Assembly (NCBI GenBank): GCA_012517355.1
Contig: JAAYVD010000059.1
Span: 1 to 43,535, forward strand
Reading direction: 5' to 3'
Length of the DNA stretch: 43,535 bases
Origin: Candidatus Rifleibacteriota bacterium
GTDB lineage: Bacteria; Muiribacteriota; Ozemobacteria; Ozemobacterales; Ozemobacteraceae
Part shown: piece after piece, positions 413-22,090 of the stretch
Position numbering within the stretch: position 1 is the stretch's first letter
Layout: each line of letters begins with the position of its first letter
Position numbers and translations under genes: made by a program
Notes under the pieces: model-generated
What the model saw: the letters and a program-made list of their open reading frames with translations, nothing else
Databases searched by the model: none
What the model was told of the DNA's origin: nothing

Positions 413-973
413 ATGCTGCGCACCGCCACCTCGCGCTGGACCCTGGCCTCATCCCTGGCCCTCGCCCTGGCCCTGACCACCCCGGGCCTCGCCCAGGAAA
501 CCGGCCCCGGCTCCGCCCCGACGGCCGGTGCCGCCGCCCTGGCCGCCCCGGCCGACCAGCCCGCCGGCCAGGACCCCCTCGCCGCCCTCGACGAGGAACC
601 CGCCCAGGTGCAGGCCCTTTCCGATACCCACAAGTTCATTCCCGGCGTCGAAGGGAAGGACCCGTTCAAACCCCTCGTCGTGAAACCCCTTCCCCCAAAA
701 ACCACCGAAGTGGTGGCCACCGCTCCCGTGGTCATCATCCCCGGTCCGGAGAAACCCCCTCCCCCTCTTCAGTTGTTCGTCTCGGGGATCTGCGGAAACG
801 AATCGGAACGTCTGGCCATGATCATCTTCGAAAACAGACCATTCGTCGTCCATAAAGAAATGAATGTGGACGGAAAGTTCAAAGTTGTCGATGTACTAGC
901 TGATCGCCTAGTCATTTATTCCAACAGGGAACAAATGCGTCGGACATTTCCGATCGGAGGTGGAAAAGAATGA
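413..973 (+). CDS. PilP/GspC-like secretin-partner protein, second copy
   Basis: 186 aa. The ATG at 413 follows an AGGAAAGGGGG ribosome binding site. The N-terminus is a signal peptide or anchor (hydrophobic to about residue 30, ending near GLAQE), then an Ala/Pro-rich linker, the GKDPFKPLVV motif near residue 83, and a C-terminal PilP-like domain. It is the paralogue of the truncated gene upstream and overlaps the secretin start by ATGA, so the three are probably one operon. The last 130 or so bases are strikingly AT-richer than the rest (CTA, GTA, AAA and ATT codons), although the protein there is nearly identical to the GC-rich upstream copy. The same stretch carries the secretin ribosome binding site GGAGGT at 956-961. 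Confidence 0.85.
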   Translation: MLRTATSRWTLASSLALALALTTPGLAQETGPGSAPTAGAAALAAPADQPAGQDPLAALDEEPAQVQALSDTHKFIPGVEGKDPFKPLVVKPLPPKTTEVVATAPVVIIPGPEKPPPPLQLFVSGICGNESERLAMIIFENRPFVVHKEMNVDGKFKVVDVLADRLVIYSNREQMRRTFPIGGGKE

Positions 974-2355
974 GTTCCACGGGTACCCAGAGAAAAACCC
1001 TCTACCTGGTGCTGGCAGCGTGGGTCCTGCTGCTGGCGTCTTCGGCCCTTGCCGAAGACAACATCTCGCTCGACTTCCGCGACACGGACATCCGTGAGAT
1101 CATCAAGATCATCGCCCAGAAGTCGGGCACCAACATCATCGCCGAGAAGAGCGTCCGCGGCAACGTCACCGTTCGCCTCAACGACGTCTATTACGAGGAA
1201 GCGATGAACCTGATCGCCAAGACCAACGGGTTCGCCGTCCGCAAGATCGGCAACACCTGGATCCTGGCCGATGAGAAGAAGCTCATCGAGGCCTTCGAAA
1301 AGGGCCTGACCATCACCAAGCGGCTGCAGTATGCCAAGGCCGCCGACGTGAGCAAGATCATCGCCCAGACCATCAAGAAGGACGTCAAGGTCGCCACCGA
1401 CGAACGCATCAACGCGGTCATCGTCTCCGGCGGCAAGGACATCCTGGACGAGGTGAAGAAGCTCATCGAGACCATCGACACCCCCGTCCACCAGGTCATG
1501 ATCGAGTCGAAGATCGTCGAAGTGACCACCAACGCCACCAAGAACCTCGGGTTCAAGTGGCAGGCCGGTCTGGAAGACGCGGTGCAGGACCTGAGCGCCG
1601 CCCCCATCTTCCGCACCAAGGAATACTTCGCGGCCAATCCCGACTCCACCCTCTACCAGGGCGGCACCTTCGCCCGGCCCCAGGGTGAACTGTTCGGCCT
1701 CGGCGACTTCTACCGCGACAACCTGATCTTCCGCACCACCCTCGCCATCCTGGAAACCCACAACGAGAGCAAGGTCCTGAGCAATCCCAAGATCTCGGCG
1801 GTGAACGGCCAGGAAGCCAACATCGTGGTGGGCACCAAGGTCATCTACCCCGGCGGCGCCGACCAGCCCCCGAAGGAAAAGGACACCGGTATCAAGCTGA
1901 AGATCACCCCCCGCATCAACGACGACGGCTACATCACCGTCGATGCGGAACCGGAAGTGTCCTTCGTGGAAAGCTGGTCCAACAACGGCATGTATCCCGT
2001 CATCGGCACTCGCTCCGCCAAGACCACCATCCGCGTCCGTGACGGCGAGGAGATCCTGATCGGCGGCCTCATCCGCGACAACGAGACCAAGGAACGGAAC
2101 AAGATCCCGCTCCTGGGCAACATCCCGATCATCAAGTCCCTGTTCAACTTCACCGGCAAAACCGGCAGCTCGCAGGAACTGATCATCCTCATCACCCCGC
2201 ACATCATCGCCCAGAGCATCGAATCGGCCGCCCCGACCTCGCTGGTGCCCACCGGTGGGGAAGCGGCAACCGTGGCGCCCGCCGCCCAGCCCGCCGCCCA
2301 GCCCGCCGGCACCCCCGGCGACGCCTTCGACAACGCCTTCGACAGCTCGTTCTAG
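970..2355 (+). CDS. Secretin, outer-membrane channel (PilQ/GspD family, short form)
   Basis: 461 aa. Signal peptide about 1-28 (cleavage near SSALA-ED). Two N-domains follow: an STN/N0-N1-like unit about 30-105 (ISLDFRDTDIREIIKIIAQ) and a second about 117-175 (LQYAKAADVSKIIAQTI). The secretin core is about 180-415, with LSNPKISAVNGQEANI and the C-terminal signature region GEEILIGGLIRDNETKE, IPLLGNIPIIKSLF and ELIILITPHII. It is shorter than typical PilQ or GspD (600-700 aa) because it has few N-domains. A Pro/Ala tail ends the protein. It would form the outer-membrane pore for a pilus or pseudopilus, with the PilP-like proteins as periplasmic partners. Translation is coupled to the preceding gene. 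Confidence 0.95.
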   Translation: MSSTGTQRKTLYLVLAAWVLLLASSALAEDNISLDFRDTDIREIIKIIAQKSGTNIIAEKSVRGNVTVRLNDVYYEEAMNLIAKTNGFAVRKIGNTWILADEKKLIEAFEKGLTITKRLQYAKAADVSKIIAQTIKKDVKVATDERINAVIVSGGKDILDEVKKLIETIDTPVHQVMIESKIVEVTTNATKNLGFKWQAGLEDAVQDLSAAPIFRTKEYFAANPDSTLYQGGTFARPQGELFGLGDFYRDNLIFRTTLAILETHNESKVLSNPKISAVNGQEANIVVGTKVIYPGGADQPPKEKDTGIKLKITPRINDDGYITVDAEPEVSFVESWSNNGMYPVIGTRSAKTTIRVRDGEEILIGGLIRDNETKERNKIPLLGNIPIIKSLFNFTGKTGSSQELIILITPHIIAQSIESAAPTSLVPTGGEAATVAPAAQPAAQPAGTPGDAFDNAFDSSF

Positions 2356-2373
2356 CCCACCCTCCGAACTCCA

Positions 2374-2401
2374 CCCCGGCCCCCACGGGCCGGGGTTTTT
2401 T
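2374..2401 (+). terminator. Rho-independent terminator after the secretin gene
   Basis: A perfect 9-bp stem (CCCCGGCCC / GGGCCGGGG) with a 4-nt loop is followed directly by six T. It starts 18 nt after the secretin stop codon and closes the PilP-PilP-secretin operon. Confidence 0.92.
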
Positions 2402-2695: not shown

Positions 2696-4177
2696 ATGAA
2701 ACGACCCCGCCGGACCCTTTCCGGCCTCCTATTGGCCATGCTCCTGACCACCTCGCTGGTGGTGCCCACCCTCCTGGAGGCCGCCAGCCCCCTGTCCATT
2801 CTGCAGGGCCACACGGTCAAGCCGGCCGCCGGCACCACCGAGGCGGGGGCCCCCGCCGCCGAGACCCCCACCGCACGCCAGGCCCGCATCTTCCTCAACA
2901 CCGACGGGCTGGTCAGCCGGTCGAAGGACCTCGCCTTCATGCAGCTCTTCAAGGCCGAACTGGAGAAACGGGGGATCCCCACCCAGATCTCCCCCTACGG
3001 CAGCGGCCCGAACAACCACGTCCTCAGCATCAAGAACTGCCCCCAGGGCTCCTGGGTGGTCACCGCCGCCAGCGGCATCTGCGCCGGCACCTTCCGCGAC
3101 ATGGTCCTGGCCCGGAAAGGCTACCTGAAGTCCTCCTGGGAAAAGAACCAGATCGCGGGCCTCATCTTCCTCAACCTCTCCCCGCACCTGCTCAAGGGCC
3201 TCGGCTACCTGCGCCGCGCCTGGGATGACAACTTCTCCCCCGCCTCCTTCAGGGGCATCGAGAACCCCTACCAGTACATCCGCAGCGTGGGCTACTTCGT
3301 GGCCGAATCGGCCTCCTACAACAAGCCCGAGTTGAACCCGAAGCGGGTGCCGATCCTCGCGGCCCAGATCGCCGACATCGTGCTCGGCAGGTCGGAAGGC
3401 GGCACCGAGTCGGCCGAGGCCCAGGAACTCAGCTGGATCCTGCAGCGGGTCGCCCAGGGCGACACCAGCCAGGATGGCGCCAAGGTGAAGGAACTGCAAC
3501 GCGCCCTGCAGGCCTGCGGCTATTACCGGGGCTACCTCGTCGACGGCTGGTTCGGCCCCCTCACCCAGCAGGCCGTCATGGCCTTCCAGCGCGACCACCG
3601 CCTGAACGTCAGCGGCTACGTCGGGCCCTCCCTCTTCAGCTACATCCGCGACAAGGCCAGGGAAGGGAAGGGGAAACCCGCCACCGGCACGAGCGGTTCC
3701 TCCACCACGGGCGGCTCCTTCGCCTGCCCCGACGACCTGAAATCCTACCTGCAGGCGACCTCCCACTGCCAGGTCACCAACGCCGCCATCCAGGCCAAGG
3801 CCAGGAGCCTGCGTGGCAGCACGCCCGCCGCCACCATCGCCAACGTCTTCCGGTTCGCCCAATCCCTCGGCTACCGCTACTACTACAACAGCCAGCAGGG
3901 CGCCGCCACCACCCTCGCCCGCGGCCGCGGCAACTGCTGCGACCAGGCCAACCTGATCGTCGCCCTCCTGCGCGCCAACGGCATCCCCGGCAAATACGGC
4001 CATTGCACCGACTGCCGGTTCGGCTCCGGCCTGCGCTGCGGACACGTCTGGGCCTACGCCTGGTGTGACGGAAAGTGGCTGGCCCTCGACTCCACCAGCT
4101 CGAAGAACCGCGTGGGCGCCCTCAACAGCTTCACCGCCCTCGGCACCATCAGGACCTACCGCGAACTCTCCTTCTGA
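2696..4177 (+). CDS. Secreted transglutaminase-fold cell-wall hydrolase-like protein with peptidoglycan-binding domain
   Basis: 493 aa. The ATG at 2696 is chosen because GGGAGG precedes it and a clear signal peptide (about 1-30) follows. Just after it comes SPLSILQGH. Residues about 62-230 form a domain (NTDGLVSRSKD, GPNNHVLSIKN, CAGTFRDM, RRAWDDNFSP) that I associate from memory with methanogen surface proteins. A PG_binding_1-like domain follows at about 255-325 (VKELQRALQACGYY, GWFGPLTQQAV). The C-terminal transglutaminase-like domain (380-475) has the triad context GNCCDQANL (Cys 414/415), GHVWAY (His 450) and LALDSTS (Asp 465). This arrangement resembles pseudomurein endoisopeptidases (peptidase family C71) more than true transglutaminases. 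It likely acts on wall peptides in the periplasm. A partner gene follows 20 bases later. Confidence 0.8.
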   Translation: MKRPRRTLSGLLLAMLLTTSLVVPTLLEAASPLSILQGHTVKPAAGTTEAGAPAAETPTARQARIFLNTDGLVSRSKDLAFMQLFKAELEKRGIPTQISPYGSGPNNHVLSIKNCPQGSWVVTAASGICAGTFRDMVLARKGYLKSSWEKNQIAGLIFLNLSPHLLKGLGYLRRAWDDNFSPASFRGIENPYQYIRSVGYFVAESASYNKPELNPKRVPILAAQIADIVLGRSEGGTESAEAQELSWILQRVAQGDTSQDGAKVKELQRALQACGYYRGYLVDGWFGPLTQQAVMAFQRDHRLNVSGYVGPSLFSYIRDKAREGKGKPATGTSGSSTTGGSFACPDDLKSYLQATSHCQVTNAAIQAKARSLRGSTPAATIANVFRFAQSLGYRYYYNSQQGAATTLARGRGNCCDQANLIVALLRANGIPGKYGHCTDCRFGSGLRCGHVWAYAWCDGKWLALDSTSSKNRVGALNSFTALGTIRTYRELSF

Positions 4178-4196: not shown

Positions 4197-5297
4197 ATGC
4201 GCATCCTGCCTTCCCTCCTGCTCGCCCTGGCCTTCCTCGCCGCCCTTCCCACGGACGCCACGGCCGCCGAAGAACCCGCCGCCACCCCCGCCATCCATCT
4301 CGGAACCGTGGCGGCCGTCATTCCCGGCCCGATCACGGCCCCCGACCGGGATGCCGGGTCCGGCTTCCTCCTCGCCGTGGCCGACGGCCAGGCCTTCGTC
4401 CTCGACCTGCTCGGCCGCCGCATGCTGGTCCGGCCGCTGCAAGGGGAAGCCCCGGTCGCCACCTCCCCCCTGCCCAAGGACTTCCTGACCGCCGCCACCG
4501 CCCCCGACGGGCACGTGGTCGCCCTGTTCCGGAAGGGGTTGCAGACCTGGCCGTCCTGGCCCGCCTTCGCCCACGCCTGTGCCGACCCCGTCGCCGGACC
4601 GGCCAACCGGGTGCCCCTGGCCGGGCCCGCCTTGGCCGACGAACCCCGCCGCTACCGGCTGAAGGCCGCCCCCGACGGGACCTTCCTCTTGCGCGATGCC
4701 CAGACCGACACGCTGCACGTGCTCGCCGCCGACGGCCGGGAACTCGGAGCCCCCCCCTGTGGCAGCGACTTCCTGCCCACCGGCCAGGGAACCTTCCTGA
4801 TGACGACCGGCTCGCCCGACCAGGGCCTGAAGATCCAGGAGTTCCCCACGACCCCCCCCGCGCCCGGCCAGGACCAGCCCCAGACCGAGATGACGGGCTG
4901 GAACGAAGCCCTGAACCTCGACACCGCCGAGGCCACCCTGCTGGCCCTCGACCCCGCCGCCCCCGCCGCCTGGATCGCCCTGGCGCCGCCCGTCCCGGAG
5001 GTCCCGGTCGTTTCGGATCCCCAGGAAGCCACCGCCACCGCGGCGGTCGAGGATGCCCCCAGCGGGGTTTCCATCACGCCCACCCTGTTCCGGCACCCCA
5101 CCGACCCCACCCAGGAATGCCTCGTGGTGGCCCGCCTCGAGCCGAAAGGCCCGCTCACCCCGGTGGCCCGCTTCCCGGTGGGGGAGGCCGACGGCAAGCT
5201 CTGCCTCACCACCCAGGGCCTCTGGTTCCTCACCCTCGAATTCGGCGCCGAGGACCGCATCGACCGGCTGGTGATCCATCACGCCCCGGCGAAGTGA
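4197..5297 (+). CDS. Secreted beta-rich protein of unknown function, partner of the transglutaminase-like gene
   Basis: 366 aa. The ATG at 4197 has AAGGAG 8 bases upstream, and a signal peptide (about 1-24) ends near TDATAA-EE. I do not recognise a family. The protein has repeated short beta-like units (FLLAVADGQAFVLDLLGRR, RRYRLKAAPDGTFLLRDAQ, LHVLAADGRELG) reminiscent of a beta-propeller. It is a paralogue of the gene at 14989-16122, which also directly follows a transglutaminase-like gene (compare RRYRLQATADGRMALTD). The conserved pairing suggests the two products act together in the periplasm. The fold is inferred from pattern only. Confidence 0.75.
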   Translation: MRILPSLLLALAFLAALPTDATAAEEPAATPAIHLGTVAAVIPGPITAPDRDAGSGFLLAVADGQAFVLDLLGRRMLVRPLQGEAPVATSPLPKDFLTAATAPDGHVVALFRKGLQTWPSWPAFAHACADPVAGPANRVPLAGPALADEPRRYRLKAAPDGTFLLRDAQTDTLHVLAADGRELGAPPCGSDFLPTGQGTFLMTTGSPDQGLKIQEFPTTPPAPGQDQPQTEMTGWNEALNLDTAEATLLALDPAAPAAWIALAPPVPEVPVVSDPQEATATAAVEDAPSGVSITPTLFRHPTDPTQECLVVARLEPKGPLTPVARFPVGEADGKLCLTTQGLWFLTLEFGAEDRIDRLVIHHAPAK

Positions 5298-5563: not shown

Positions 5564-6127
5564 TCAGCCAGGGCCCGCGCCACCCATCTCCTCGCCCATC
5601 TCGCGGCGGGCCCGGAACAGGCGGATCTTGACCAGGTCCACCGAGATCTCGAGGATGTCGCCGATCTCGACGCAGCTGCGCCCGAGGAAGTAGTAGAGCC
5701 AGACCACCAGCCGCTTGTCCTCGTCGAGCCGCCGGAAGGCGGCCAGCACCTGGGCCCGGTCCTCGGCCCGCACCTGGACTTCGAGCGGGTCGGGCAGATC
5801 GGCCCCGGCGTCGGGATCGGGTGGCGGCAGCGGCCGCTTTGTGCGACGCAAAAACTGGTAGCAGTGGTGGGTGGCGATCTTGAGGATCCAGTTGGTGAAG
5901 GAGCGGCCGACGTCGAACCGCGGCAGGCTCTGCCAGGTGGCCAGAAAGATGTCCTGGCACAGGTCGAGGGCCTCCTCGCGGCGGCGCGTGTAGTTCATCA
6001 CCAGCCCGAGCACCCGGTGCTGGTAGCGCCGCACCAGCTCGGCGAACCGGTCGGGACGGCCCGCCCGCGCCTCGGCGACGATCGCCTCGTCGGATACGGC
6101 GGGCGGAACCCCCACGCCTTGGTTCAT
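5564..6127 (-). CDS. ECF-type sigma-70 family RNA polymerase sigma factor
   Basis: 187 aa. The start at 6127 overlaps the stop of the upstream GspJ-like gene (ATGA); an in-frame ATG at 6139 lies inside that gene. Region 2: RFAELVRRYQHRVLGLVMNY, DLCQDIFLATWQSLPRF, FTNWILKIATHHCYQFLRR. Region 4: LDEDKRLVVWLYYFLGRSCVEIGDILEISVDLVKIRLFRARREMG. Regions 1 and 3 are absent, as expected for ECF factors, which recruit polymerase to promoters with an AAC-containing -35. It is the last gene of module A and has no adjacent anti-sigma gene; the only zinc-finger anti-sigma in view is at 39600-40811. I infer that it recognises the TGTAACC-N16 sites. Confidence 0.93.
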   Translation of the reverse strand: MNQGVGVPPAVSDEAIVAEARAGRPDRFAELVRRYQHRVLGLVMNYTRRREEALDLCQDIFLATWQSLPRFDVGRSFTNWILKIATHHCYQFLRRTKRPLPPPDPDAGADLPDPLEVQVRAEDRAQVLAAFRRLDEDKRLVVWLYYFLGRSCVEIGDILEISVDLVKIRLFRARREMGEEMGGAGPG

Positions 6128-6678
6128 GGGCGCTGCCACTCGGGAACCGCCGCGTTGGCCGGGGCGTTCCCGCAGAAGATGAACCGTTCGAGCCGGTTCG
6201 TCTCCTTCCCCTGGTCGGTGGCGATCTCGAATCGCACCAGCACCCCGAACCGCCCCTCCGCCAGGGTCGTGCGGGTGAAGATCGCCTGGCCCCCGACGGG
6301 GGTCACCAACAAGCCGGAGGCCAGCACCCGGTCCGAGTCGCCCGGCCCCCCGCCCGACTGGCGGCGCCGGACGCCGAGCCCGCCGGGAACGAGTTCGTAG
6401 GAAACCGCGGCGCAGACCACCCCTCCCGCCCCCACCTCCTCGACCACCTCGAGGTGCATGCCACCCGACCCGACGTTCACCGTCCGGGCCCGTTGCAGGT
6501 CGGCCTCGCAGTGGGCCAGCAACAGCGCCCCCGCCTGGATGTTGGTGAGGTGCGAGGCCCCCTTGACCGACGAGCGGAGCCCCTGCGACAGCAGGTTGCC
6601 GAGGAAGGCGAGGATCAGGGCTCCCACCACCGCCCCGATGACCACCTCGACCAGGGTCATGGCCCGTCGCCGCGTCAT
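6124..6678 (-). CDS. GspJ-like minor pseudopilin, module A
   Basis: 184 aa. It starts by ATGA overlap with the GspI-like gene. The prepilin signal is short: MTRRRA then MTLVEVVIGAVVGALILAF, with Glu at +5. Residue -1 is Ala instead of the usual Gly, which may affect processing. The segment after the helix (GLRSSVKGASHLTNIQAGALLLAHCEADLQRAR) and the C-terminal FIFCGNAPANAAVPEWQ match the GspJ-like proteins of modules B and C. It is likely a membrane-extracted minor pseudopilin forming part of a K/I/J tip. Assignment to J rests on gene order (K, I, J) and weak similarity. Confidence 0.8.
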   Translation of the reverse strand: MTRRRAMTLVEVVIGAVVGALILAFLGNLLSQGLRSSVKGASHLTNIQAGALLLAHCEADLQRARTVNVGSGGMHLEVVEEVGAGGVVCAAVSYELVPGGLGVRRRQSGGGPGDSDRVLASGLLVTPVGGQAIFTRTTLAEGRFGVLVRFEIATDQGKETNRLERFIFCGNAPANAAVPEWQRP

Positions 6679-7391
6679 GGCTTCCCCCGGAACACGAGAC
6701 CGGTCAGGCGGATGGCCCGCGCCACCCCGCCGCTCTCCCAGGCCACCCTCGCCACCAGCACCTTGTAGCGGTAGGGCACCCGGTCGCCGGTCGCCTGCCC
6801 CTCGGTGACCGCGAGGGACCGCCCGAACCGCGGATCGGTGGCGGAACCGGCCACCTGAGCCAGGGCCGGCACCTCGCGCTGGCCAGGGGCCAGCAAGGGA
6901 TCGTCGAACGGCAGGCCCCGGGCCAGGTGCAGCACGTCGGCCGCCAGGCCGTAGGCCACCACCTCGTCCCGGGTCTGGACCGTGCCGGTCGTCCCCTGGC
7001 GGAACAGCGTGAACAGGGGCAGGACGGCGATGCCCAGCAGCAGGATGCCCAGGGCGACCTCGACCATGGAGAAACCCGCGACAGGGCCGCCGGTGAACCC
7101 GCCGCCCAGACGGCGACGGACCACCGGACAGGCTGCCCGGCGGAGGAAGCGGCCCCCCCCGCACCGGGCCCGGTTCGTCCGAGCCGGGTGAAGGGCGGCC
7201 ACGGGTCCCTTCACATCCCGCGGGTTTCCTGGAGCACCGCGGGCCCGATGGCTGGAATCGCCCCCGGCCGCCACGGCCCCCAAGGCCGGCCCGAACGCCA
7301 ATGCCGGCCGGCCGGCGCCGGGCGACAGGCGCTGGGCGACGGGGCCACGGGGTTTGGCAACAGGGCGGGAACCGGCCAGGATTCCTGTCAT
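6675..7391 (-). CDS. GspI-like minor pseudopilin with a long N-terminal leader, module A
   Basis: 238 aa. Translation is coupled to the GspK-like gene by ATGA at 7391. The prepilin helix (AGFSMVEVALGILLLGIAVLPLF, Glu at +5) begins only at about residue 105, after an unusually long Arg/Gly/Pro-rich leader. I see no in-frame start codon nearer the helix. The mature part includes FRQGTTGTVQTRDEVVAYGLA and PYRYKVLVARVAWESGGVAR, shared with the I-like proteins of modules B and C. The leader DNA contains GC-rich inverted sequence that may be a decayed copy of the dispersed hairpin element. Confidence 0.8.
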   Translation of the reverse strand: MTGILAGSRPVAKPRGPVAQRLSPGAGRPALAFGPALGAVAAGGDSSHRARGAPGNPRDVKGPVAALHPARTNRARCGGGRFLRRAACPVVRRRLGGGFTGGPVAGFSMVEVALGILLLGIAVLPLFTLFRQGTTGTVQTRDEVVAYGLAADVLHLARGLPFDDPLLAPGQREVPALAQVAGSATDPRFGRSLAVTEGQATGDRVPYRYKVLVARVAWESGGVARAIRLTGLVFRGKP

Positions 7392-9514
7392 CGCAGCAGG
7401 ATGGGCGACGGATCGACGCTGCACGCCAGCAGGGCCTTCCCGTCGGGGCCACCGGGAAGGGCGGCCAGGTTGGGGTTGTAGAACAGGTCCGCCCCCTGCG
7501 AGGCGTTGGCCAGATCGAACTTGCCGGTGGCCACCCCGCCCCGGAGGCGAGGCCGGCCACGCCGGAAAAGCACCTTTTCCCCCGCCGCAAGGACGGCGTC
7601 GACCCGCTGGCCGTCGAGGTCGCCGACCTCGATCGAGCCACTCGGCGCCACCAGGTGCAACGTGAAGGCGGGGGGCCCGTCGTTCTCGGCCGCCCCACCC
7701 CCGTCGATGGGTGCCAGCACCCGGATGTCGCCGGATTCGAGCACCAGCCCGCCGTTGCCCGCGAGGGTCAGGGGCTCTTTGACCACCAGCCCGCCCGGCC
7801 GGGAGCCCTTCAGCAGGATCCACCCGTCGAGCCGCAACACGCGCCCCGCCGGGTCGTACAGACCCAGCCGCGCCAGGTCCTCCCACCAGTCGACCGTCCC
7901 GCCCGCGACCCCGGCGTCGATCACCCAGGCCGTGCGGGGCCCGGGCACCCCCAGCATCCCCAGCAGGGCGGCCAGTCGGGGCATGGCGGCCGGCCGGCCG
8001 GGCAGCATGTCCCGCAGTTCGGCGGGCAGCTCGTCGAGGGCGGCGGTCGAGAAATCCTTCGTCCGCATGCGCTCCAGCAGGTTCCCCTTGAAGTTGGGGA
8101 AGGGGTCGGGCACCGTGTTGTTGGTCGAGATGTAGGCGATCGAGGCATTGTAGCCTTGCACCCGCCCGCGGCTGGCGAACTCGCGCCGGAACCGGTCGCG
8201 GTCGTCCTGGCCCGGGGTCAGCTGCAGCACCTCGCGGACGAAGGTGGCCACCGATTCCAGGCCGGCGGCGGCGGCGACGCACGGATCGGGGTCGAGCATG
8301 TCCTCCCATTCCCCCAGTGACCTCGGGTAGAGCAGGAAGGCCTCGGGAAGCAGCCCCCGTGGCTCGCACTGGTAGGCCTTGGCCGAGATCATCCCCCGGA
8401 AGACGCGCCCCAGGACGAGGGTCGGGTGCTTGTGCCCCTTGTCGGTGCCGAACAACCGGAAGATCGAGTTCTTCGTCAGGAAGTCGGCTTCGGGGGTTCC
8501 CGCCACGAAGCCGATCCAGTCCGGGGAAACGTTGGCGGCCACCTCGTCGGCGATGCCCTTGTCCCACTCGAGGAGGGCCACCTGGCCGCCGCCCCAGGAA
8601 TACTCACCGATCGTGTAGAGGCCGTCCCAGTCACCGCCCGAGGTCTTCACCTCGAACGTGTGGAAGCCCTCGCCGAACGTGCCGGTGCGCGATTCGCCCC
8701 GGGCCAGGTTCAGCACCAGCGGCCCTCCTCCGAAATGGACCAGCCCTACCCGTTTCTGCAGGAAGTTCGCGGGGTTCACCAGGTCGCCGGCCTCGAGCCG
8801 CTCCCCGTTGGCCAGGACGATGGGCACCGCGCCGGTGTTCCCGGGAATCAGCTCGCCATCGGGGGTGGTGGAAACCCGGTTGAACTTCCAGCGGTCCCGG
8901 TCGGTGACGATCTCCGGGTCGTCGAGGAAAAACGTGCACTTCGACAGGACCGGCGTCCAGGCCGCGGCGATGCGGACCGGGCAGGCGAACTGGAACTCCT
9001 CGGTGAGGGCCCGCATCTTCAGGGCGACATGCAGCCGGACGAATCCCACCTTCTCCTCGGGCAGGGCCGGCGGGGGCAAAGCGGTGAAATCCGCCTTCCG
9101 CACCGAGTACCGCAGGGTGGCGACGAGGCCGCCGTCCTCGACCAAAGGCCTGGTCAGGGCGTCGGCCAATCCCTGGAACCCGGCCGGCCCGCCGTCCAGG
9201 GACAGCGGCGTCTCGCCGATGTCCCGCAGGTCGGCCAGGGGGCGGAACAACGCGGTGCGCAGGGTGGGGTCGCCCGGGTCCGCCGACAGCAGGTCATACC
9301 GCAGTTTGTGGGCGGCCAGCGCCGCCAGGCCCTGGGCCGCCGACCCGGTCAGGGTGACCTCCCCCTGACGATGGGTCTGGCCGCGCAGGGAAACCATGAA
9401 CTGGGCGAACCACCCGCCGACCAGGAACAGGATCACCACGATGGCGAAAATGGTGACGAGCATCGAACCGGCCCGGGGGCCGGACCGCGGCCACCATTTC
9501 CGCGGGTCTGGCAC
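7388..9514 (-). CDS. GspK-like large minor pseudopilin, module A
   Basis: 708 aa. A GTG start at 9514 overlaps the OmpA gene stop (TAGTG). The short leader ends at GPRAG, followed by SMLVTIFAIVVILFLVGGWF, a prepilin-type helix lacking Glu at +5 as in GspK. The large exported domain has blocks shared with modules B and C: LVHFGGGPLVLNLARGESR, FRLFGTD, ASIAYISTNNTV. A C-terminal third of short alternating beta segments (GNGGLVLESGDIRVLAPI to LRGGVATGKFDLANAS) looks like a beta-helix. GspK caps the type II pseudopilus; this protein is about twice the usual GspK length. Function is inferred from topology and the K-I-J order. Confidence 0.8.
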   Translation of the reverse strand: MPDPRKWWPRSGPRAGSMLVTIFAIVVILFLVGGWFAQFMVSLRGQTHRQGEVTLTGSAAQGLAALAAHKLRYDLLSADPGDPTLRTALFRPLADLRDIGETPLSLDGGPAGFQGLADALTRPLVEDGGLVATLRYSVRKADFTALPPPALPEEKVGFVRLHVALKMRALTEEFQFACPVRIAAAWTPVLSKCTFFLDDPEIVTDRDRWKFNRVSTTPDGELIPGNTGAVPIVLANGERLEAGDLVNPANFLQKRVGLVHFGGGPLVLNLARGESRTGTFGEGFHTFEVKTSGGDWDGLYTIGEYSWGGGQVALLEWDKGIADEVAANVSPDWIGFVAGTPEADFLTKNSIFRLFGTDKGHKHPTLVLGRVFRGMISAKAYQCEPRGLLPEAFLLYPRSLGEWEDMLDPDPCVAAAAGLESVATFVREVLQLTPGQDDRDRFRREFASRGRVQGYNASIAYISTNNTVPDPFPNFKGNLLERMRTKDFSTAALDELPAELRDMLPGRPAAMPRLAALLGMLGVPGPRTAWVIDAGVAGGTVDWWEDLARLGLYDPAGRVLRLDGWILLKGSRPGGLVVKEPLTLAGNGGLVLESGDIRVLAPIDGGGAAENDGPPAFTLHLVAPSGSIEVGDLDGQRVDAVLAAGEKVLFRRGRPRLRGGVATGKFDLANASQGADLFYNPNLAALPGGPDGKALLACSVDPSPILLR

Positions 9515-10404
9515 TATTCCCTCACGATCTCGACCCGCCGGTTGCGGGCGCGCCCGGCCGCAGTGGCGTTGGTCACGAGCGGGCGGGTCTCGCCGAACCC
9601 CTCGGTGCGCAGACGGTTGGCTCCGATGCCGCGCTGCATCAGCCAGTCCTTGATGGCGAACGCGCGCTTCCGCGACAGGTCGAGGTTGTAGTCGGCGCCC
9701 TGGTAGTTGTCGGTGTGCCCCTCGATCAGCAAACGGACCTCAGGGTTGGCACGCAGCAGGGCCAGCAGCTTCTCGAGGGTGGGGAAGGAACGGGCCCGCA
9801 ACACCGCGCTCTGGGGGTCGAAGCGCACCGCCAGCACCATGCGGCCGGTGGTCCGCAGCGACTCGAAGCCCGGGGGCCAGGTGCCCGGGGCCAGGGGGCC
9901 TTCCCCCTCGGGAGGGTCGGGAGGCAGGAACAGCGGGGCCGGCAGGAAGTCGGGATGCCGGTGGATCCGCTTGGGATCGCCCAACCGGGTGCGGGTCAGC
10001 ACGGGGAAGGCCGGATCATGGCGGATGGCACCCATCGCCGCCGGCAGGCTGGCAAAGGGATCCTGGCCCTTGTCGGCCAAGGCCTTGAAGGACTTCATCT
10101 GGTCGAGGGTCTCCGCGGCGGAGGGGCCGGGCAGACGGATGATCCGGCAGCCCTGATCGAGCAGCCGATCTACCTCCTGGTCGCCCGCCGCCGTGAAGGC
10201 CTTCCCCAAAAGCAGCACGTCCGCCCCATCGGGAACGGCGTTGACGTCGTCGAGATACCGGCCCTGGACGCCGATGCCCCGGGCCGCCTGCACGTCCGCC
10301 AGGCTGCCCAGGATGCACGGTTCGGCCAGGAGCCGGCCGGCCCCGAACAGAATGGCCAGGACGGCCCACCCAGCCAATCCCCACGCCTGCTTGTCAGTCC
10401 ACAT
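9514..10404 (-). CDS. OmpA-family C-terminal domain envelope protein, module A
   Basis: 296 aa. Signal peptide about 1-27 (AGRLLA-EP), then PCILGS with a conserved Cys also seen in the module B paralogue. The middle is unassigned. The C-terminal OmpA-like peptidoglycan-binding domain (about 185-296) has FDPQSAVL, IEGHTDNYQGADYNLDLSRKR, RLRTEGFGETRP and GRARNRRVEI. It likely anchors the module to peptidoglycan. It is first in module A and directly coupled to the GspK-like gene. A sigma-70-like promoter lies upstream at 10424-10453. Confidence 0.92.
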   Translation of the reverse strand: MWTDKQAWGLAGWAVLAILFGAGRLLAEPCILGSLADVQAARGIGVQGRYLDDVNAVPDGADVLLLGKAFTAAGDQEVDRLLDQGCRIIRLPGPSAAETLDQMKSFKALADKGQDPFASLPAAMGAIRHDPAFPVLTRTRLGDPKRIHRHPDFLPAPLFLPPDPPEGEGPLAPGTWPPGFESLRTTGRMVLAVRFDPQSAVLRARSFPTLEKLLALLRANPEVRLLIEGHTDNYQGADYNLDLSRKRAFAIKDWLMQRGIGANRLRTEGFGETRPLVTNATAAGRARNRRVEIVRE

Positions 10405-11831: not shown

Positions 11832-13985
11832 TCATCGGGTCAGCAGCGGGGTCGGATCGAGGCTGTAGCCCAGCACGTCGTGGACCTCGCTCCCCGGGCC
11901 CTTCTGGAACTCCGCCGCGCATGCCGGCAACACGGCGAGGGCGGGGTTGTACTCGAGCAGGGCCGCCGACGAGGCGTTGCGGATCTCGTACCGCTTCATG
12001 GCCACCCCCCCCCGCAGGTGCGGCCCGCCCTCCAGCCGCACCCGCTGGGCGGCGGCCAAAGCGACGTCGACCCGCCGGCCGGTCGGAGCCTTCACGGTGA
12101 TCGACCCCTTCCGGGCCACCACCTGCAGCACCAGCGGATCGCGGGCCGGGTCCAGGTCGCCGTCGATGGTCTCCTTGATCAGGATGTCCCCCTCCTCCAG
12201 CACCAGGCCGCCGTTGCTGAGCAGCTTCATTCGTGGCAGCACCAGACCGGAAGCCGGGGCGCGGCCCTGCAGGACGATCCACCCCTTGGGGTCGAGTTCA
12301 CCGCGGTTGGGGTGCCAGAGACCGCGCCGGTGCAACGGACCGCCCGGTTTGAAGAGCTGCCCGGGGTCGGCCATTTCGACCACCCAGGTGGGACGCCCCC
12401 GGGCCGGGTCGAGGCTTTGCAGAAAGCCGTCCAGCCGCACCCCCGTCCGGCCCTGGCCGTCGAGCACCGCCCCGAATTCCTCGGGCAGCTGGTCCAGCAC
12501 GGCCGAGGAACTGGCCATCCGGTCGCGCAGACGGGTGTCGGAGATCTGGGTAAACGGGTTGGCGATCGTGTTGTTGGTGGTGTAGTAGGCCAGGGAGATG
12601 TTGTAGGGGGCCAGGCCCGCCCGGCTGGCATACTCGCGCTGGTATTTCTCGAGGTCGGAGACGGTCGCCGACAGGCCGAGGGCGTCCCGCGCGAAGGTGG
12701 CGATGCTGGGGAAGGTCTCGTTGGCGGAATAGCAGACCTGGCGGTTGAGGGCATCGCGCCATTTGTGGGTGTCATTGAAGTATTTCAGGAACAAGGGCGG
12801 GATCGGGCCGTCGTCGGTGTTGGGCACGGGAATCACGGCCCGCAGAAGGATCGCCGACCGGAAAACCTTGCCGATCACCAGGGTAGGTGACAGGTCGACG
12901 TCGGTGCCGAACAACCGGAAGATCGAACTGAACCGCATGTATTTCGCTTCCGGGGTGTCGGCGATCGCCTCGAAGAAGAACCCGTGCAGGGTGTCACCCC
13001 GTTCGTCGGCAACCGGCTTGTGCCATTCCATCAGCTGGCAGGTCTGGGGGGTGCTGAAGTCGCGCACCGCGTAGAGGCCGTCCCAGAGCTGGTCGCGGTT
13101 GCGCGTTTCGAAGAACCACCGGCCCTCACCGAATTCCCCCGCCCGGCTCTCCCCGCGGGCCATGTTCAGGTAGAGAGGACCCCCTCCCAGGTAGACCAGC
13201 CCGACGCGCTTGCGGAAGAAACTCCCCCACTCGATCGAGCCGGGGTCGAGCCGGGGGCCGTTACGCAACACCAGCGGCTGGACGGCGGACGACTTGAGCT
13301 GGCCGTCGGGATTGGCCGACACGAGGTTGTACTGCCACGGGGCGGGCTGTCCCGCCTCGTCGGTGGCGGCATCCTCGACGAACAGCGAAAACTTCGACAC
13401 CCCGGGCACGACCGCCGCCGTCACCCGGATCGGGCATTGGAAGTGGAACTCCTCCTCCGTCTCCTTCAGGGTGGTCACGATGGTCAGCCGCAGCACCCCG
13501 ACCTTCTCGGCCGGCAGCTTCGACAGCCCCTGGAAATCGGCCGCCCGCGCCGCGAAGGTGATGCGGAACCGAAATGGCCCCTGCTCCCGGATCGGCACGG
13601 TCAGGGCGTCCACCGCCGCCTGGAAGTCGACGCGGCCCCCGACCAGCTCGAGGGGGAACTCGCCGTATCCTCGAGGCATCTCCGCGAGCGGACCCGCCAG
13701 CCAGGTCCGCAGCCCGTCGTCCCCGCCGGCCGGATCCAGCAGGTCATATTGGATCTTGTGGGTGGCGAGCACCGCCAGCGCCCGGGCCACCTGGGCCATC
13801 AGCCGGCTCTCCCCGAGCCGGTGGGTCTGGGCCCGCGTCGATTTCATGAAGTGCGAGAAGAAGGCGGCGACCATCGCCAGCAGGACGAGGATGCCGAACG
13901 CGATCAGAAAGACGGTGCTGCCGCGCCGGCCGCGGGAAAGCGGAACCCGGGCGGCCGATGGCCACCGACCCGACGAACCTCTCAT
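11832..13985 (-). CDS. GspK-like large minor pseudopilin, module B
   Basis: 717 aa. The ATG at 13985 overlaps the OmpA stop (ATGA). Leader to about residue 22 ends RRG, then STVFLIAFGILVLLAMVAAFF, a prepilin-type helix without Glu at +5. It aligns with modules A and C through THKIQYDLL, VSKFSLFVEDA, VGLVYLGGGPLYLNMARGES, SIFRLFGTD, ISLAYYTTNNTI and a C-terminal beta-helix-like section (LSNGGLVLEEGDILIKETI, LRGGVAMKRYEIRNAS). It is the likely tip-capping subunit of module B. Its leader is short and repeat-free, unlike the adjacent GspI-like gene. Confidence 0.8.
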   Translation of the reverse strand: MRGSSGRWPSAARVPLSRGRRGSTVFLIAFGILVLLAMVAAFFSHFMKSTRAQTHRLGESRLMAQVARALAVLATHKIQYDLLDPAGGDDGLRTWLAGPLAEMPRGYGEFPLELVGGRVDFQAAVDALTVPIREQGPFRFRITFAARAADFQGLSKLPAEKVGVLRLTIVTTLKETEEEFHFQCPIRVTAAVVPGVSKFSLFVEDAATDEAGQPAPWQYNLVSANPDGQLKSSAVQPLVLRNGPRLDPGSIEWGSFFRKRVGLVYLGGGPLYLNMARGESRAGEFGEGRWFFETRNRDQLWDGLYAVRDFSTPQTCQLMEWHKPVADERGDTLHGFFFEAIADTPEAKYMRFSSIFRLFGTDVDLSPTLVIGKVFRSAILLRAVIPVPNTDDGPIPPLFLKYFNDTHKWRDALNRQVCYSANETFPSIATFARDALGLSATVSDLEKYQREYASRAGLAPYNISLAYYTTNNTIANPFTQISDTRLRDRMASSSAVLDQLPEEFGAVLDGQGRTGVRLDGFLQSLDPARGRPTWVVEMADPGQLFKPGGPLHRRGLWHPNRGELDPKGWIVLQGRAPASGLVLPRMKLLSNGGLVLEEGDILIKETIDGDLDPARDPLVLQVVARKGSITVKAPTGRRVDVALAAAQRVRLEGGPHLRGGVAMKRYEIRNASSAALLEYNPALAVLPACAAEFQKGPGSEVHDVLGYSLDPTPLLTR

Positions 13986-14988: not shown

Positions 14989-16122
14989 TCACGGGCCGGG
15001 GCCCGCAGGAACCCCGGCCGGGCCTCGAAACACGGTCAGTCCGGTGAGGGTCACCTCGTCGCGGAACCGGGGGGCCAGCAGAAACAGATGGTCGCCCGAC
15101 CGTTTCAGCTTGCCGGCCGGGTCGAACCACGGGAAGGCTGCCACGGGCCGGGCCGTGGGGGTGCCCGCTCCCGCCAGGACGACGACCAACCGCAACCGCT
15201 GCGGATCGCCCGGTTCGAAGAACGGTGCCAGCGCGGGGTCCTGCCCGACCAGGCGGTTCCGGGCCGCTTCGGCGGCGGCCACCCCCGTCCCGGGGGCGGG
15301 GTCCCGGCCGGCCTCCCGCCCGTCGGGCGGCCCCGCCGGATCGGGCGGCGACAGGGCCACCCAGGTGGCTCCCGAGGCCGGATCCCGATCGATGATCTCC
15401 CCGGCCAGGAAGGTCTTTCCCAAGCGACAGGGGATGCCCCGCTCCGCGCCGCCACCAGCCGTGGGCCGCGACCCGGGCCAGGGCTCCCCGACGAGGGCCA
15501 GGCCGGCCGGTCCGGCCTGGGTGGTCAGCAACGTCCCTCCGGGCGTCAGCCAGGCCGGCCGGTCGGTCTCCCGGTCGCCCACCACCCGGCCATCGACGGA
15601 AACCAGCACCACGACCCGGAACCTCAGGTCGGTCAAGGCCATCCGGCCGTCCGCGGTCGCCTGCAGACGGTATCGCCGCCGGTCGTCCTGCAGCGGGAGG
15701 TTCCGGAAGGGAACCCACGAGGAGGAAGCCGGCTTCCCGCCGGCCAGCAGGGTTTCGAACCCCTCCACGTCACCCAGGAAGCGCACTCCGTCGCGCTGGA
15801 GCACGGCCACCCGCCCGTCGGCGAGGAAACTGGCGGACAGGATGCCGGGGGGCAGCGGCTGGCTGCCGGTCAGCCGGCGCGTCTCCAGGTCACCGGTGAG
15901 CACCTTGCCGGCATACAGATCCTGGATGAACACCCGGTTCCCGACGATGTCGAGGAGGAAGTCGACCCCGCCTTCGCGGCCATCCACGGCGGCTTCGAGG
16001 GGAATCTCCCACCATGGCTCGGCAACGGGAACCCCCGCCCCGGCCGTTCCCGCCCACGCCAGACCCGGCCACCAGAAGGCCAGCATGACCCCCACCACCA
16101 TCCATCCACGCATTCCCGGCAT
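14989..16122 (-). CDS. Secreted beta-rich protein of unknown function, second partner paralogue
   Basis: 377 aa from the ATG at 16122, chosen because AGGAAGG lies about 9 bases upstream; nearby in-frame ATGs at 16131 and 16113 remain possible. Signal peptide ends near PGLAWA-GT. Repeated beta-like blocks (FLLDIVGNRVFIQDLYAGK, SASFLADGRVAVLQRDGVR, RRYRLQATADGRMALTDLR) parallel the gene at 4197-5297. It lies 25 bases after a transglutaminase-like gene, the same order as the plus-strand pair. I do not recognise the family; a propeller-like fold is a guess. Confidence 0.75.
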   Translation of the reverse strand: MPGMRGWMVVGVMLAFWWPGLAWAGTAGAGVPVAEPWWEIPLEAAVDGREGGVDFLLDIVGNRVFIQDLYAGKVLTGDLETRRLTGSQPLPPGILSASFLADGRVAVLQRDGVRFLGDVEGFETLLAGGKPASSSWVPFRNLPLQDDRRRYRLQATADGRMALTDLRFRVVVLVSVDGRVVGDRETDRPAWLTPGGTLLTTQAGPAGLALVGEPWPGSRPTAGGGAERGIPCRLGKTFLAGEIIDRDPASGATWVALSPPDPAGPPDGREAGRDPAPGTGVAAAEAARNRLVGQDPALAPFFEPGDPQRLRLVVVLAGAGTPTARPVAAFPWFDPAGKLKRSGDHLFLLAPRFRDEVTLTGLTVFRGPAGVPAGPGP

Positions 16123-16147
16123 CGGTCTCATCCTTCCTGACGCCCTG

Positions 16148-16864
16148 TCAAAACGGGAGTTCGGCGAAGAGCGATTCGTCGCCGCCACGCCGGCAGTTGA
16201 CCTGGCTGCCCACGCCGTTCCGATCGCTCGAGGCATCCATCACCACCCACTTCCCGTCGAGGAAGGCATAGGCGTAGACATGTCCGCAGACCAGCCCCGA
16301 CGAAAACGTGCAGGTGGAACGCCCATACCGCGCGGGGATGCCCGCCGCCCGCAGCAGGGCCACGATCAGGTGGGCATGGTCGCAGCAGTTCCCCGACCCG
16401 CCCTGCAGCGTCCCGACGGCCCCGTGTCGGGTGTCGAAGTAGAAGGAATAGGCCACCCGGGACTGGACCGCGCTCATGATGTTCGCCGCCACCTGCCGGT
16501 CGGTGCGGGCCACCAGCTCCTTCGCCTCCTCCCGGCTGTCGGGACGGGCCGCCTGCAGCCATGCCTCGCGGTCGGAAACCGCCACCCGGCACTGGTTGGC
16601 CAGGGCCACGATGGCCGGGTCCCGCGACTGGGCATTCCGGGTGGGGGAAAGGAATTCGCCCACCGCCACAGGTCGGGGGGGTGCCGTGCCGGTGTCCTCG
16701 GTGCCGTGCACCGTGCCGGTGATTTCCCCGGTCGCCTCTCCAGGCCGCAACCGGTGGTCGAGGAGGATGCCCGAGGATTCCCGGGCCTGGAGGGGGGCCC
16801 CCGAAAACCCGGCGAGCACCGCCAGCACGAGGATCAGGCCCAGGACCTTCCGGATCGCACCCAT
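16148..16864 (-). CDS. Secreted transglutaminase-fold cysteine hydrolase-like protein (C71-like)
   Basis: 238 aa. The ATG at 16864 has GGAGGAAG 6 bases upstream and leads into a signal peptide (about 1-29). Near the mature N-terminus is SSGILLDH, a variant of the SPxxILxxH motif. The catalytic domain has GNCCDHAHL (Cys 160/161), CTFSSGLVCGHVYAY (His 195) and VVMDASSDRN (Asp 210), resembling pseudomurein endoisopeptidases. Unlike the 493-aa paralogue it lacks the peptidoglycan-binding and N-terminal domains. It opens the long minus-strand run, with a promoter-like TGTAACC site 39 to 67 bases upstream. Confidence 0.82.
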   Translation of the reverse strand: MGAIRKVLGLILVLAVLAGFSGAPLQARESSGILLDHRLRPGEATGEITGTVHGTEDTGTAPPRPVAVGEFLSPTRNAQSRDPAIVALANQCRVAVSDREAWLQAARPDSREEAKELVARTDRQVAANIMSAVQSRVAYSFYFDTRHGAVGTLQGGSGNCCDHAHLIVALLRAAGIPARYGRSTCTFSSGLVCGHVYAYAFLDGKWVVMDASSDRNGVGSQVNCRRGGDESLFAELPF

Positions 16865-17676: not shown

Positions 17677-18119
17677 CGCTTCACCTGGAACAGGAGACCG
17701 GACAGGTGGATCCGGCGCTCGATGCCGTAGGTGCTCCAGGCCACCTCGACGACCAGGACCTTGTAGGCATACGGCACCCCCGCCGTGGCCGGGAAGTCGG
17801 ACACGGTCAGGGTGCGGCGGAACCGGGGATCCTGGGCGGACGGATCGTAGACGGTGCGGCTGACCGGCATGTCCTGGGAACCCGCCGCCAGCCGGGGATC
17901 GGCGAACGGCCAGCCTTTGGCCTCCTGCAGGAGCCCCGTGGCCAGGCCGTGGGCCACCGCCTCGTCCCAGGTCTGCCGGGTTCCCTCGGCCCCCCGGTTG
18001 AACAGGGTGAACACCGGCACCAGCACGAGGGCCAACAGCACGATGGCGACCATGATCTCGGCGAAGGACAGGCCGGTGGTTCGTCCCAGGCCCTGGCGGC
18101 GGCGGGGTGAGCGTCTCAT
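17673..18119 (-). CDS. GspI-like minor pseudopilin with short leader, module C
   Basis: 148 aa, ATGA-coupled to the GspK-like gene. Leader of 16 residues (MRRSPRRRQGLGRTTG) then LSFAEIMVAIVLLALVLVPVF, Glu at +5. The mature part matches modules A and B (FTLFNRGAEGTRQTWDEAVA, PYAYKVLVVEVAWSTYGIER, IHLSGLLFQVKR). This is the only I-like gene in the window with a normal short leader, which makes the 100-residue leaders of modules A and B look like insertions. Confidence 0.87.
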   Translation of the reverse strand: MRRSPRRRQGLGRTTGLSFAEIMVAIVLLALVLVPVFTLFNRGAEGTRQTWDEAVAHGLATGLLQEAKGWPFADPRLAAGSQDMPVSRTVYDPSAQDPRFRRTLTVSDFPATAGVPYAYKVLVVEVAWSTYGIERRIHLSGLLFQVKR

Positions 18120-20539: not shown

Positions 20540-20617
20540 CTTCCATCCTCCTTCCGGGAGGGAGCCTCCCGGGTAGACCCTCGAGCGATTCCCATGCCGT
20601 GGGGCCGATCTCCGGCA

Positions 20618-20626
20618 ACTATACCA
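20618..20626 (-). promoter_or_regulatory. Extended -10 promoter element before module C
   Basis: Minus-strand TGG-TATAGT in the context ACCATGGTATAG, about 80 bases before the GspK-like ATG. It shares CATGGTATA with the element at 14953-14961 and may be a second, housekeeping start. Confidence 0.4.
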
Positions 20627-20726
20627 TGGTCTCTCTGACCGGGCTCCGGGCGGCAGGCGAAAGCGCCCCTGCTGGTCCGGACCCGGGGCCGGACAGACGA
20701 CGTTCGATCGTATCACCCCCAACCGG

Positions 20727-21007: not shown

Positions 21008-22090
21008 ATGAAGACCAGAATGGCGAGGTTCCCTTGGAGGATGGCACCGGTGATCGCCTTACTGCTCCTGCTGGCTGGAGGGACCGCCTGTCCGGGCCAG
21101 TCCCTCGACGGGGCCGTCAACGAGATCAAGGCGTTCTGCGGGGTCATGGCCGGCGTTGAGCAGGCGGGAATCAACTGGGGGGCATTCAACAAGACCTGCC
21201 AGACGTATGCCGACGCCCACAAGAAGGAAATGGAGAAAGACCCTTTCTACGTCCCTGTCAACGGACCACGGGCGTGGGCAGAATCGAAGGTCGACCCCAA
21301 CAAGAGCAAGATCGAAGCGGCGGTGAACCTGATCAACGACTTCCTGAAGCAGCAGCGGCCCTACTTCTGCGAAACCGGCCTGATCGACGCCATGGAAACG
21401 TTGAAGAAGGACTTCGACGAAGCCCGGAAATCTTCCCAGGGGGCCAAGGGCGGCATCGACAAGATGTCCGGAACCAAGTCGGAATGGCAGACCAGGATGG
21501 GCAAGATCGGCCGGGAAACGGAAGCGGTCGGGAACTTCCTCATCGGCAAGGCAGGCCTGTTTTCCGACCTCGTCGCCCAGATCGACCCGGCGGTCGCGAA
21601 GTTTCTCACCCCGGCCGGGATCCGCGGCAAACTCGAAGGCCTGGGAAACTCGCTCAAAGCCGCCGGGCAGAAGGTCGTCGATGCCGGCAAGCAGCTCCAA
21701 CAGAAGGCCGCCGAGGCCACCTCCCAGGACGAAGGATATGGAAACGCCATGAGCCAGGGCGGGGGTGGAGGATCGGGGGGCGGGTCCGGCGGCGGGTCCG
21801 CTCCAGTCCCACCGGCCTCCCCTGCCGGCTCCCGCGAAGTCTCCCAGGCCTTCGACGCCAGCGACCGGGCCACCGTCGCCACCGCTCCGGCCTCCGGAAC
21901 CGCGGGCCCACAGAACCCGGATGACACGGTGGGAACCGATTCGGCACGCACCACCACTCCCTCCGACGGGGTGGCCACCGGCTCGGCCACCGCCGATGAT
22001 CAGGCTTCGGCCACCTCCGGAGCCGTCTCCGCCCCCACCGAGGGCCGACCGAAGAACAAACCAGGGCTCAACCTGGGGGGGAGGAAGTGA
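21008..22090 (+). CDS. Secreted helical protein of unknown function, first gene of module D
   Basis: 360 aa. The ATG at 21008 has AAGGAGGG 9 bases upstream; earlier in-frame starts lack a signal peptide. Hydrophobic signal (APVIALLLLLAGGTAC), then a charged, mostly helical region (about 35-245) with several Cys (IKAFCGVMAG, FNKTCQTYADAHKKEMEK, QQRPYFCETG), then a Gly/Ser and Ala/Thr/Pro-rich low-complexity region, ending RPKNKPGLNLGGRK. The position and tail match the first gene of module E (IKTKPGLSIPKK), although the bodies differ. No family recognised. It could be a substrate or tip-associated protein of the module. Confidence 0.75.
   Translation: MKTRMARFPWRMAPVIALLLLLAGGTACPGQSLDGAVNEIKAFCGVMAGVEQAGINWGAFNKTCQTYADAHKKEMEKDPFYVPVNGPRAWAESKVDPNKSKIEAAVNLINDFLKQQRPYFCETGLIDAMETLKKDFDEARKSSQGAKGGIDKMSGTKSEWQTRMGKIGRETEAVGNFLIGKAGLFSDLVAQIDPAVAKFLTPAGIRGKLEGLGNSLKAAGQKVVDAGKQLQQKAAEATSQDEGYGNAMSQGGGGGSGGGSGGGSAPVPPASPAGSREVSQAFDASDRATVATAPASGTAGPQNPDDTVGTDSARTTTPSDGVATGSATADDQASATSGAVSAPTEGRPKNKPGLNLGGRK

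Follow-up and report, generated by a model that had tools for sequence, protein, structure and literature searches.

Methanogen-type transglutaminase domains, predicted from profiles and distribution, in two putative wall proteins of a Riflebacteria envelope locus

Two proteins, A and B, are encoded in the window, the 43,535-nucleotide stretch of Riflebacteria DNA analysed here, which comes from a genome of 7.1 Mb. Judged by sequence profiles and by distribution among genomes, which give firm ground for the assignment, their transglutaminase (TG) domains belong to the family of wall transglutaminases found in pseudomurein methanogens. In these Riflebacteria enzymes two key domains that are otherwise found almost only in pseudomurein methanogens, the TG domain and an N-terminal domain (N-domain), are joined to a bacterial wall-binding domain. 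Archaea and bacteria would then have wall-acting domains in common, and not only Mur ligases. The bacterial branch with PG_binding_1 offers a second test system for the chemistry by which methanogens cross-link and cut their own pseudomurein.

Two predicted wall proteins and their neighbourhood

The features of the locus are collected in Table 1. Protein A starts at the ATG at 2696, which is preceded by AGGGAGG. For protein B we chose the ATG at 16864 as the start, with the stop at 16148, and its residue numbers count from that ATG.

Table 1. Positions of the features discussed, counted from the first letter of the window
Feature	Position	Strand	Remarks
Secretin (GspD/PilQ type)	970..2355	+	PF00263, E 3.8e-43
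Terminator-like stem	2373..2396	+	10 pairs with T tail; located between the secretin gene and A; a pattern match, not proof
Protein A	2696..4177	+	coding 2696-4174, 493 aa; from N to C: signal-like N-terminus, N-domain, PG_binding_1, methanogen-type TG domain ending YRELSF
N-domain of A	2861..3445	+	without Pfam family; shared with Methanobacteriales surface proteins
PG_binding_1 (PF01471) of A	3476..3634	+	aa 261-313, E 8.5e-18
TG domain of A	3722..4174	+	triad C414 (codon 3935), H450 (codon 4043), D465 (codon 4088)
Partner A	4197..5297	+	secreted-looking, without Pfam match; begins 20 nt past A
ECF-type sigma factor	5564..6139	-	PF04542, E 1.6e-18
Large protein in prepilin module	7388..9514	-	N-terminal hydrophobic segment; no Pfam match at E<=0.01; presumably GspK-like (our own label)
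OmpA-domain protein	9514..10404	-	homologue adjoins N-domain gene of locus L019
Partner B	14989..16131	-	paralogue of partner A; begins 16 nt past B
Protein B	16148..16864	-	about 238 aa; signal-like N-terminus and TG domain ending FAELPF
Triad of B			C160, H195, D210

The first-pass annotation had reported motifs shared by two transglutaminase-fold proteins, and these are read in both: GNCCDQANLIVALLRANGIP, SGLRCGHVWAYA and LDSTSSKN in A, and GNCCDHAHLIVALLRAAGIP, SGLVCGHVYAYA and MDASSDRN in B, which lies outside the segment 2696-4177 that it had annotated. Chance is ruled out for the motifs by the matches of PF01841 (Transglut_core) to A (E 2.3e-14, 54 bits) and B (E 6.7e-16, 59 bits), both of which pass the curated cut-off of 23 bits. 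The two proteins are 46% identical across 127 aa, and the columns of the Cys, His and Asp triad are invariant in 24/24 family rows of alignment A6.

The bacterial peptidoglycan-binding domain previously read in the larger protein is present in A as PG_binding_1, and we infer from the sequence that A is secreted and held on peptidoglycan through this domain. B is presumably exported as well; the Pfam scan at E<=10 matched no wall-binding domain in it. At E<=10, neither A nor B matched the pseudomurein-binding repeat PMBR (PF09373).

In agreement with the pilus locus proposed earlier, the window encodes, besides the secretin and the OmpA-domain protein, prepilin-type ORFs with GFTLVE-like starts. 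The terminator-like stem ahead of A suggests a separate transcription unit that probably begins with A. As the stem parts A from the secretin, a joint function of A with the apparatus rests on the neighbourhood. This neighbourhood recurs in related loci. In both L019 and L020 three genes adjoin, one for an N-domain protein, one partner-like and one for PG_binding_1+TG; FecR and TPR genes come next, and in L019 an OmpA gene lies upstream. The OmpA, FecR and TPR genes of the two loci match genes of the window at 3e-19 or better, while of the partner-like genes only the L020 copy matched the window partners (7e-7 and 1e-5), which are themselves 27-30% identical to each other. In L017 an endo/exonuclease-phosphatase gene like that of the window (9e-15) adjoins a gene with N-domain, C39 and TG. 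These gene rows show the association of TG and N-domain genes with this envelope locus to be conserved, in parts, among Riflebacteria and Wallbacteria relatives.

The window contains duplications. Three paralogous large membrane-anchored proteins (7388-9514, 11832-13985 and 18116-20722; 37-49% identical) belong to successive prepilin modules, and a second pair of large paralogues (22087-24408 and 31133-33463) is 43% identical. OmpA, FecR, TPR and TG+partner genes are duplicated too. Before the secretin two genes that we label PilP-like lie in tandem (22-365, cut by the window edge, and 631-971), their DNA being 74-84% identical over the repeats.

Family membership of the transglutaminase domain

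Compared by hhalign, the six Riflebacteria/Wallbacteria rows match twelve methanogen TGs at 4.4e-60, nine ordinary bacterial TGs at 2.1e-25 and PeiP+PeiW at 9.8e-7. The distribution agrees with this order. Alignment A2 is matched at E<=1e-10 by 59/60 genomes sampled from the order of G044, a genome with a Methanobrevibacter locus. As A2 includes one archaeal virus row, the test was repeated on the loci with an HMM restricted to the six bacterial rows. With this HMM, archaeal members of the family reached up to 191 bits, most of them 104-191, as against at most 21 bits for the other TGs of the window's genome, 19.5 for PeiP and 17.6 for PeiW.

A and B had been annotated as C71-like and close to PeiW/PeiP-type peptidases, an assignment that we reject. 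PF12386 (C71) is unmatched in both at E<=10, while PeiP and PeiW score 318 and 296 bits (curated cut-off 22), and together with the profile comparison by hhalign this rules out C71 membership. Some relatives lie near the cut-off of 22 bits (L012 with 22.0, L013 with 21.3 and the member from virus Drs3 with 20.7), and 6/24 members of A6 match PF12386 at E<=0.01. A PF12386 profile search of the window's genome gave no match (0/1) and is uninformative, as the control genomes gave none either. Gene transfer or shared ancestry, also invoked in the first-pass annotation, is needed to explain the close relatives in pseudomurein methanogens.

The family has a C-terminal mark. Of 85 family ORFs (>=95 bits), 74 end in [LIVM][PSA]F, including all six from Riflebacteria/Wallbacteria (ELSF in A, ELPF in B), as against two of 60 lower-scoring ORFs, both archaeal (Euryarchaeota and Methanopyri records); the mark depends partly on the score, since the scoring model spans the C-terminal columns.

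A species-genome scan with A2, which under-samples because a single pattern around NCCD was used, returned 44 loci, 37 archaeal and seven bacterial: two from Wallbacteria, two from Riflebacteria, one from Omnitrophota and two from one Clostridia MAG. TG matches at E<=1e-12 occur in 17/145 Omnitrophota and 26/291 Clostridia-class genomes, with one genome in each set above 100 bits and the remaining genomes at 72 bits or less. The latter matches and that of G010 (1.3e-8) are ordinary-looking TGs and were excluded from the family. When 50,697 phage records were searched, a protein of Methanobacterium virus Drs3 matched the TG domain of A best (38.8% identity over 151 aa, E 3e-24). A search of 72,556 plasmid records gave TG matches of about 1e-8 at best, and two scans of viral contigs with the TG domain found no relatives.

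The repeats that bind pseudomurein are common but not universal in methanogen TGs, being absent from some archaeal family members such as L021, and were therefore not taken as defining the family. PG_binding_1 is also present in the relatives L008, L009, L012 and L013. In A this domain occupies the place of the PMBR found in many archaeal members, while the archaeal-type N-domain is kept.

The TG domain model (pLDDT 94.4) has a predicted TG fold. Its nearest solved structure is 3ISR (Z 16.9, rmsd 2.3 over 140, 24% identity), a putative cysteine protease of Cytophaga hutchinsonii and, by its title, an ordinary bacterial TG-like protein. PeiW and PeiP resemble A and B in their TG-like fold (Z 11.8 and 11.6) and Cys-His-Asp triad, which are common to TG-like families at large and hence not decisive for C71. 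They differ in matching PF12386 and in having no LPF end, whereas A and B lack both PF12386 and PMBR. The closest known systems are the TG-type adhesin-like surface proteins of Methanobacteriales, on which passages of PMC11532034 report. These share with A and B the TG subfamily by profile, the Cys-His-Asp columns, a YxxLPF-type C-terminal end and, as predicted from sequence, an exported, wall-associated architecture. They carry PMBR or Ig-like repeats, whereas A has PG_binding_1 and a fused N-domain. In the Drs3 pseudomurein-binding repeat protein (AXN53416.1), too, YLxxTxxCQV lies upstream and the end is of the form EL[PS]F; the protein differs from A in having three PMBR instead of PG_binding_1 and no N-domain.

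In open-licence literature we found no paper joining Riflebacteria with transglutaminase or pseudomurein, nor one on Wallbacteria with archaea and peptidoglycan or on a horizontally acquired pseudomurein-binding transglutaminase.

The Clostridia MAG RGIG2228, from goat colon, has five methanogen-type TG copies; its loci include L057 2528-4465, L050 3-1391, L137 and L163. The L057 protein combines a dockerin (2.9e-15) with PMBR-like repeats and a TG domain ending YIELPF; the repeats score 19.5 bits in L057 and 24.0 in L050, at a cut-off of 24.9. The neighbours of L057 look bacterial, and its product is possibly a bacterial enzyme acting on pseudomurein.

The N-domain and the origin of the bacterial genes

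Searched at E<=10, the N-domain of A has no counterpart in Pfam. Its conserved positions are D..D, CAGT, R-A-W-D-D-N-F-S, F.G and P, and on sequence grounds it is a real conserved domain. An HMM of the four bacterial rows finds it in 47/60 genomes of the order of G044 (E<=1e-4, best 3.7e-27), which bears out the earlier remark that the N-terminal domain recalls methanogen surface proteins, and at E<=1 in 7/12 genomes reached via loci, in six of which E was 3.5e-8 or lower. Four of 39 genomes of the window's phylum have the domain. These four are among the five with a TG match to A, and the fifth, G010, has the ordinary-looking TG mentioned above. With a 12-row model the domain was found in 4/286 genomes related to the window, all within its phylum, and in 0/291 Clostridia-class genomes, a set holding no known positive, for which the search of the 286 genomes serves as the control. 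The analysis defines an unnamed domain, widespread in pseudomurein archaea and scarce outside them.

Among the loci examined, A and L017 are the only two cases of an N-domain and a TG domain fused within a single ORF. In methanogens the N-domain is flanked by Ig-like and PMBR-looking repeat regions, according to our reading without a PMBR scan. The model of the domain is of low confidence (pLDDT 70.5, from an alignment of 4 sequences). Foldseek gave a best E of 1.4e-3 at a TM of about 0.4, and VIA a best Z of 10.8 among many flavodoxin- and receiver-like folds. The predicted fold is alpha/beta with, at most, a Rossmann-like arrangement, and implies no function.

In three archaeal genomes (L202, L203 and L204) one gene for a TG and one for an N-domain are at most about 10 kb apart, around genes that we read as argC and secDF-like.

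The first-pass annotation had named a closer relationship to ordinary bacterial TG-like proteins as the finding that would speak against its view. The profiles place the domain with the methanogen family instead, and the trees lean the same way with weak support. In an 88-row tree (22 of 73 methanogen rows retained; 16 names dropped) the family forms one branch with support 94/94, into which PeiP/PeiW and one Omnitrophota row fall as well, a placement on very long branches that we distrust. In a 47-row tree (22 names dropped; 12 ordinary TG rows kept) the family branch has support 75/96, and the six Riflebacteria/Wallbacteria rows form one side of a branch at 73/93. The AU test on this tree does not reject a grouping of the two window proteins with the 12 ordinary TGs (p 0.107). 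For the methanogen rows as a clade the test gave p 0.026, and for the methanogen, Drs3 and Clostridia rows as one clade p 0.134. In the N-domain tree the four bacterial rows form one clade (99/95), which attaches between two archaeal subfamilies.

An inter-domain transfer with archaea as the source appears the more likely origin, since the N-domain is common in archaea and rare in bacteria. The trees and AU tests leave this direction unproven, while profiles and distribution make the relation itself firm. Any transfer would be old, as A (0.94) and B (0.87) resemble the adjoining genes (0.87-0.92) in GC3. Shared ancestry without transfer, in which an old bacterial wall TG, later mostly lost in bacteria, was the source of the methanogen family, is in our estimate doubtful, while keeping an appreciable share of the probability. 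It agrees with the GC3 values and with the single clade of bacterial N-domains, with further bacterial members in one Omnitrophota and one Clostridia genome, and with the AU test, which does not reject the Riflebacteria rows standing outside all other family rows taken together (p 0.446). Opposed to it are the frequency of the N-domain, in 4/286 bacterial as against 47/60 archaeal genomes, and two genomes of the same genus from which both TG and N-domain are missing.

Possible functions in the bacterial wall

Our preferred reading, put forward tentatively, is that A and B cut peptide links in the bacterium's own peptidoglycan near the pseudopilus locus. Both proteins would be exported, with A anchored on peptidoglycan by PG_binding_1. 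Through its catalytic cysteine each enzyme would attack an amide or isopeptide bond in the stem peptides, as an endopeptidase or amidase does, and could thereby loosen the sacculus at the point where it is crossed by the secretin/pseudopilus apparatus. The TG enzyme may be assisted or controlled by the partner protein, whose gene directly follows. Caution towards the cleavage reading comes from protein B, which is without a wall-binding domain, from the support of 75/96 for the family branch, and from the p-AU of 0.107 for the grouping with ordinary TGs.

The family member of virus Drs3 likely hydrolyses its substrate, as its gene is located after tail genes, the protein has three PMBR and the record contains no PeiP-like match at E<=1. 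For the A/B family as a whole, sequence cannot separate hydrolysis from cross-linking. Murein has D-amino acids at places where pseudomurein has L, and the substrate is therefore not transferable from the methanogen members. PeiW and PeiP cut L-Ala-epsilon-L-Lys, according to passages of PMC4592898 and PMC2989375. As this link in that form is not part of murein, the exact bond for A and B is not fixed by these two enzymes.

It is also conceivable, if rather unlikely, that A and B act as ligases, forming isopeptide cross-links either within peptidoglycan or from it to some protein of the apparatus. Methanogen transglutaminases have been proposed as pseudomurein cross-linkers in passages of Leahy et al. 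2010 (PMC2812497) and, as candidate OG0000044, of Lupo et al. 2025 (PMC11915815), and both papers favour cross-linking for the methanogen members; OG0000044 is, however, equated with the A/B family from its description only. Cross-linking is also consistent with the near universal presence of the family in the order of G044 (59/60 genomes) and with a predicted fold close to true transglutaminases (TG3, Z 12.9), whereas the lysin-like gene position and repeats of the Drs3 member argue for cleavage.

The predicted fold is also near LapG (Z 11.5), a likeness in structure. A LapG-like processing of surface or pilus proteins, with PG_binding_1 merely as an anchor, would suit the many surface and pseudopilin proteins encoded around A and B. 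We regard it as improbable, as the relatives by sequence are wall-associated proteins with PMBR or PG_binding_1.

An attack on archaeal walls had been considered earlier as well. Methanogens occupy anaerobic habitats too, and the closest relatives of A and B work in or on pseudomurein cells. Yet A and B are without PMBR, A has, like its relatives, a domain that by homology binds bacterial peptidoglycan, and the neighbourhood with its envelope genes is conserved within the phylum, so that a weapon against the pseudomurein of methanogens is the least probable of these functions, and very much so.

Beyond the preferred cleavage of the bacterium's own peptidoglycan, Riflebacteria and pseudomurein archaea might share a transferable kit of wall enzymes, with the wall-binding part as the one element that is exchanged; in peptidoglycan, the bacterial members of the kit would form or cut isopeptide-type links by TG chemistry. 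We advance this as a speculation that is on balance unlikely to hold in full. If true, the bacterial TG chemistry of the kit lies outside the penicillin-binding and L,D-transpeptidase types. The kit would comprise the TG domain and the N-domain, and perhaps a TIM-barrel and a C39 domain too; the similarity of the C39 domains is weak (E 0.005), as is that of the TIM-barrel between L020 and L203 (E 1e-8 in a single comparison).

The archaeal protein at L203 953-3130 (-) has a TIM-barrel-like domain followed by PMBR-like repeats and TG. In the Riflebacteria protein at L020 326-2362 a TIM-barrel-like domain is followed by PG_binding_1 and the N-domain.
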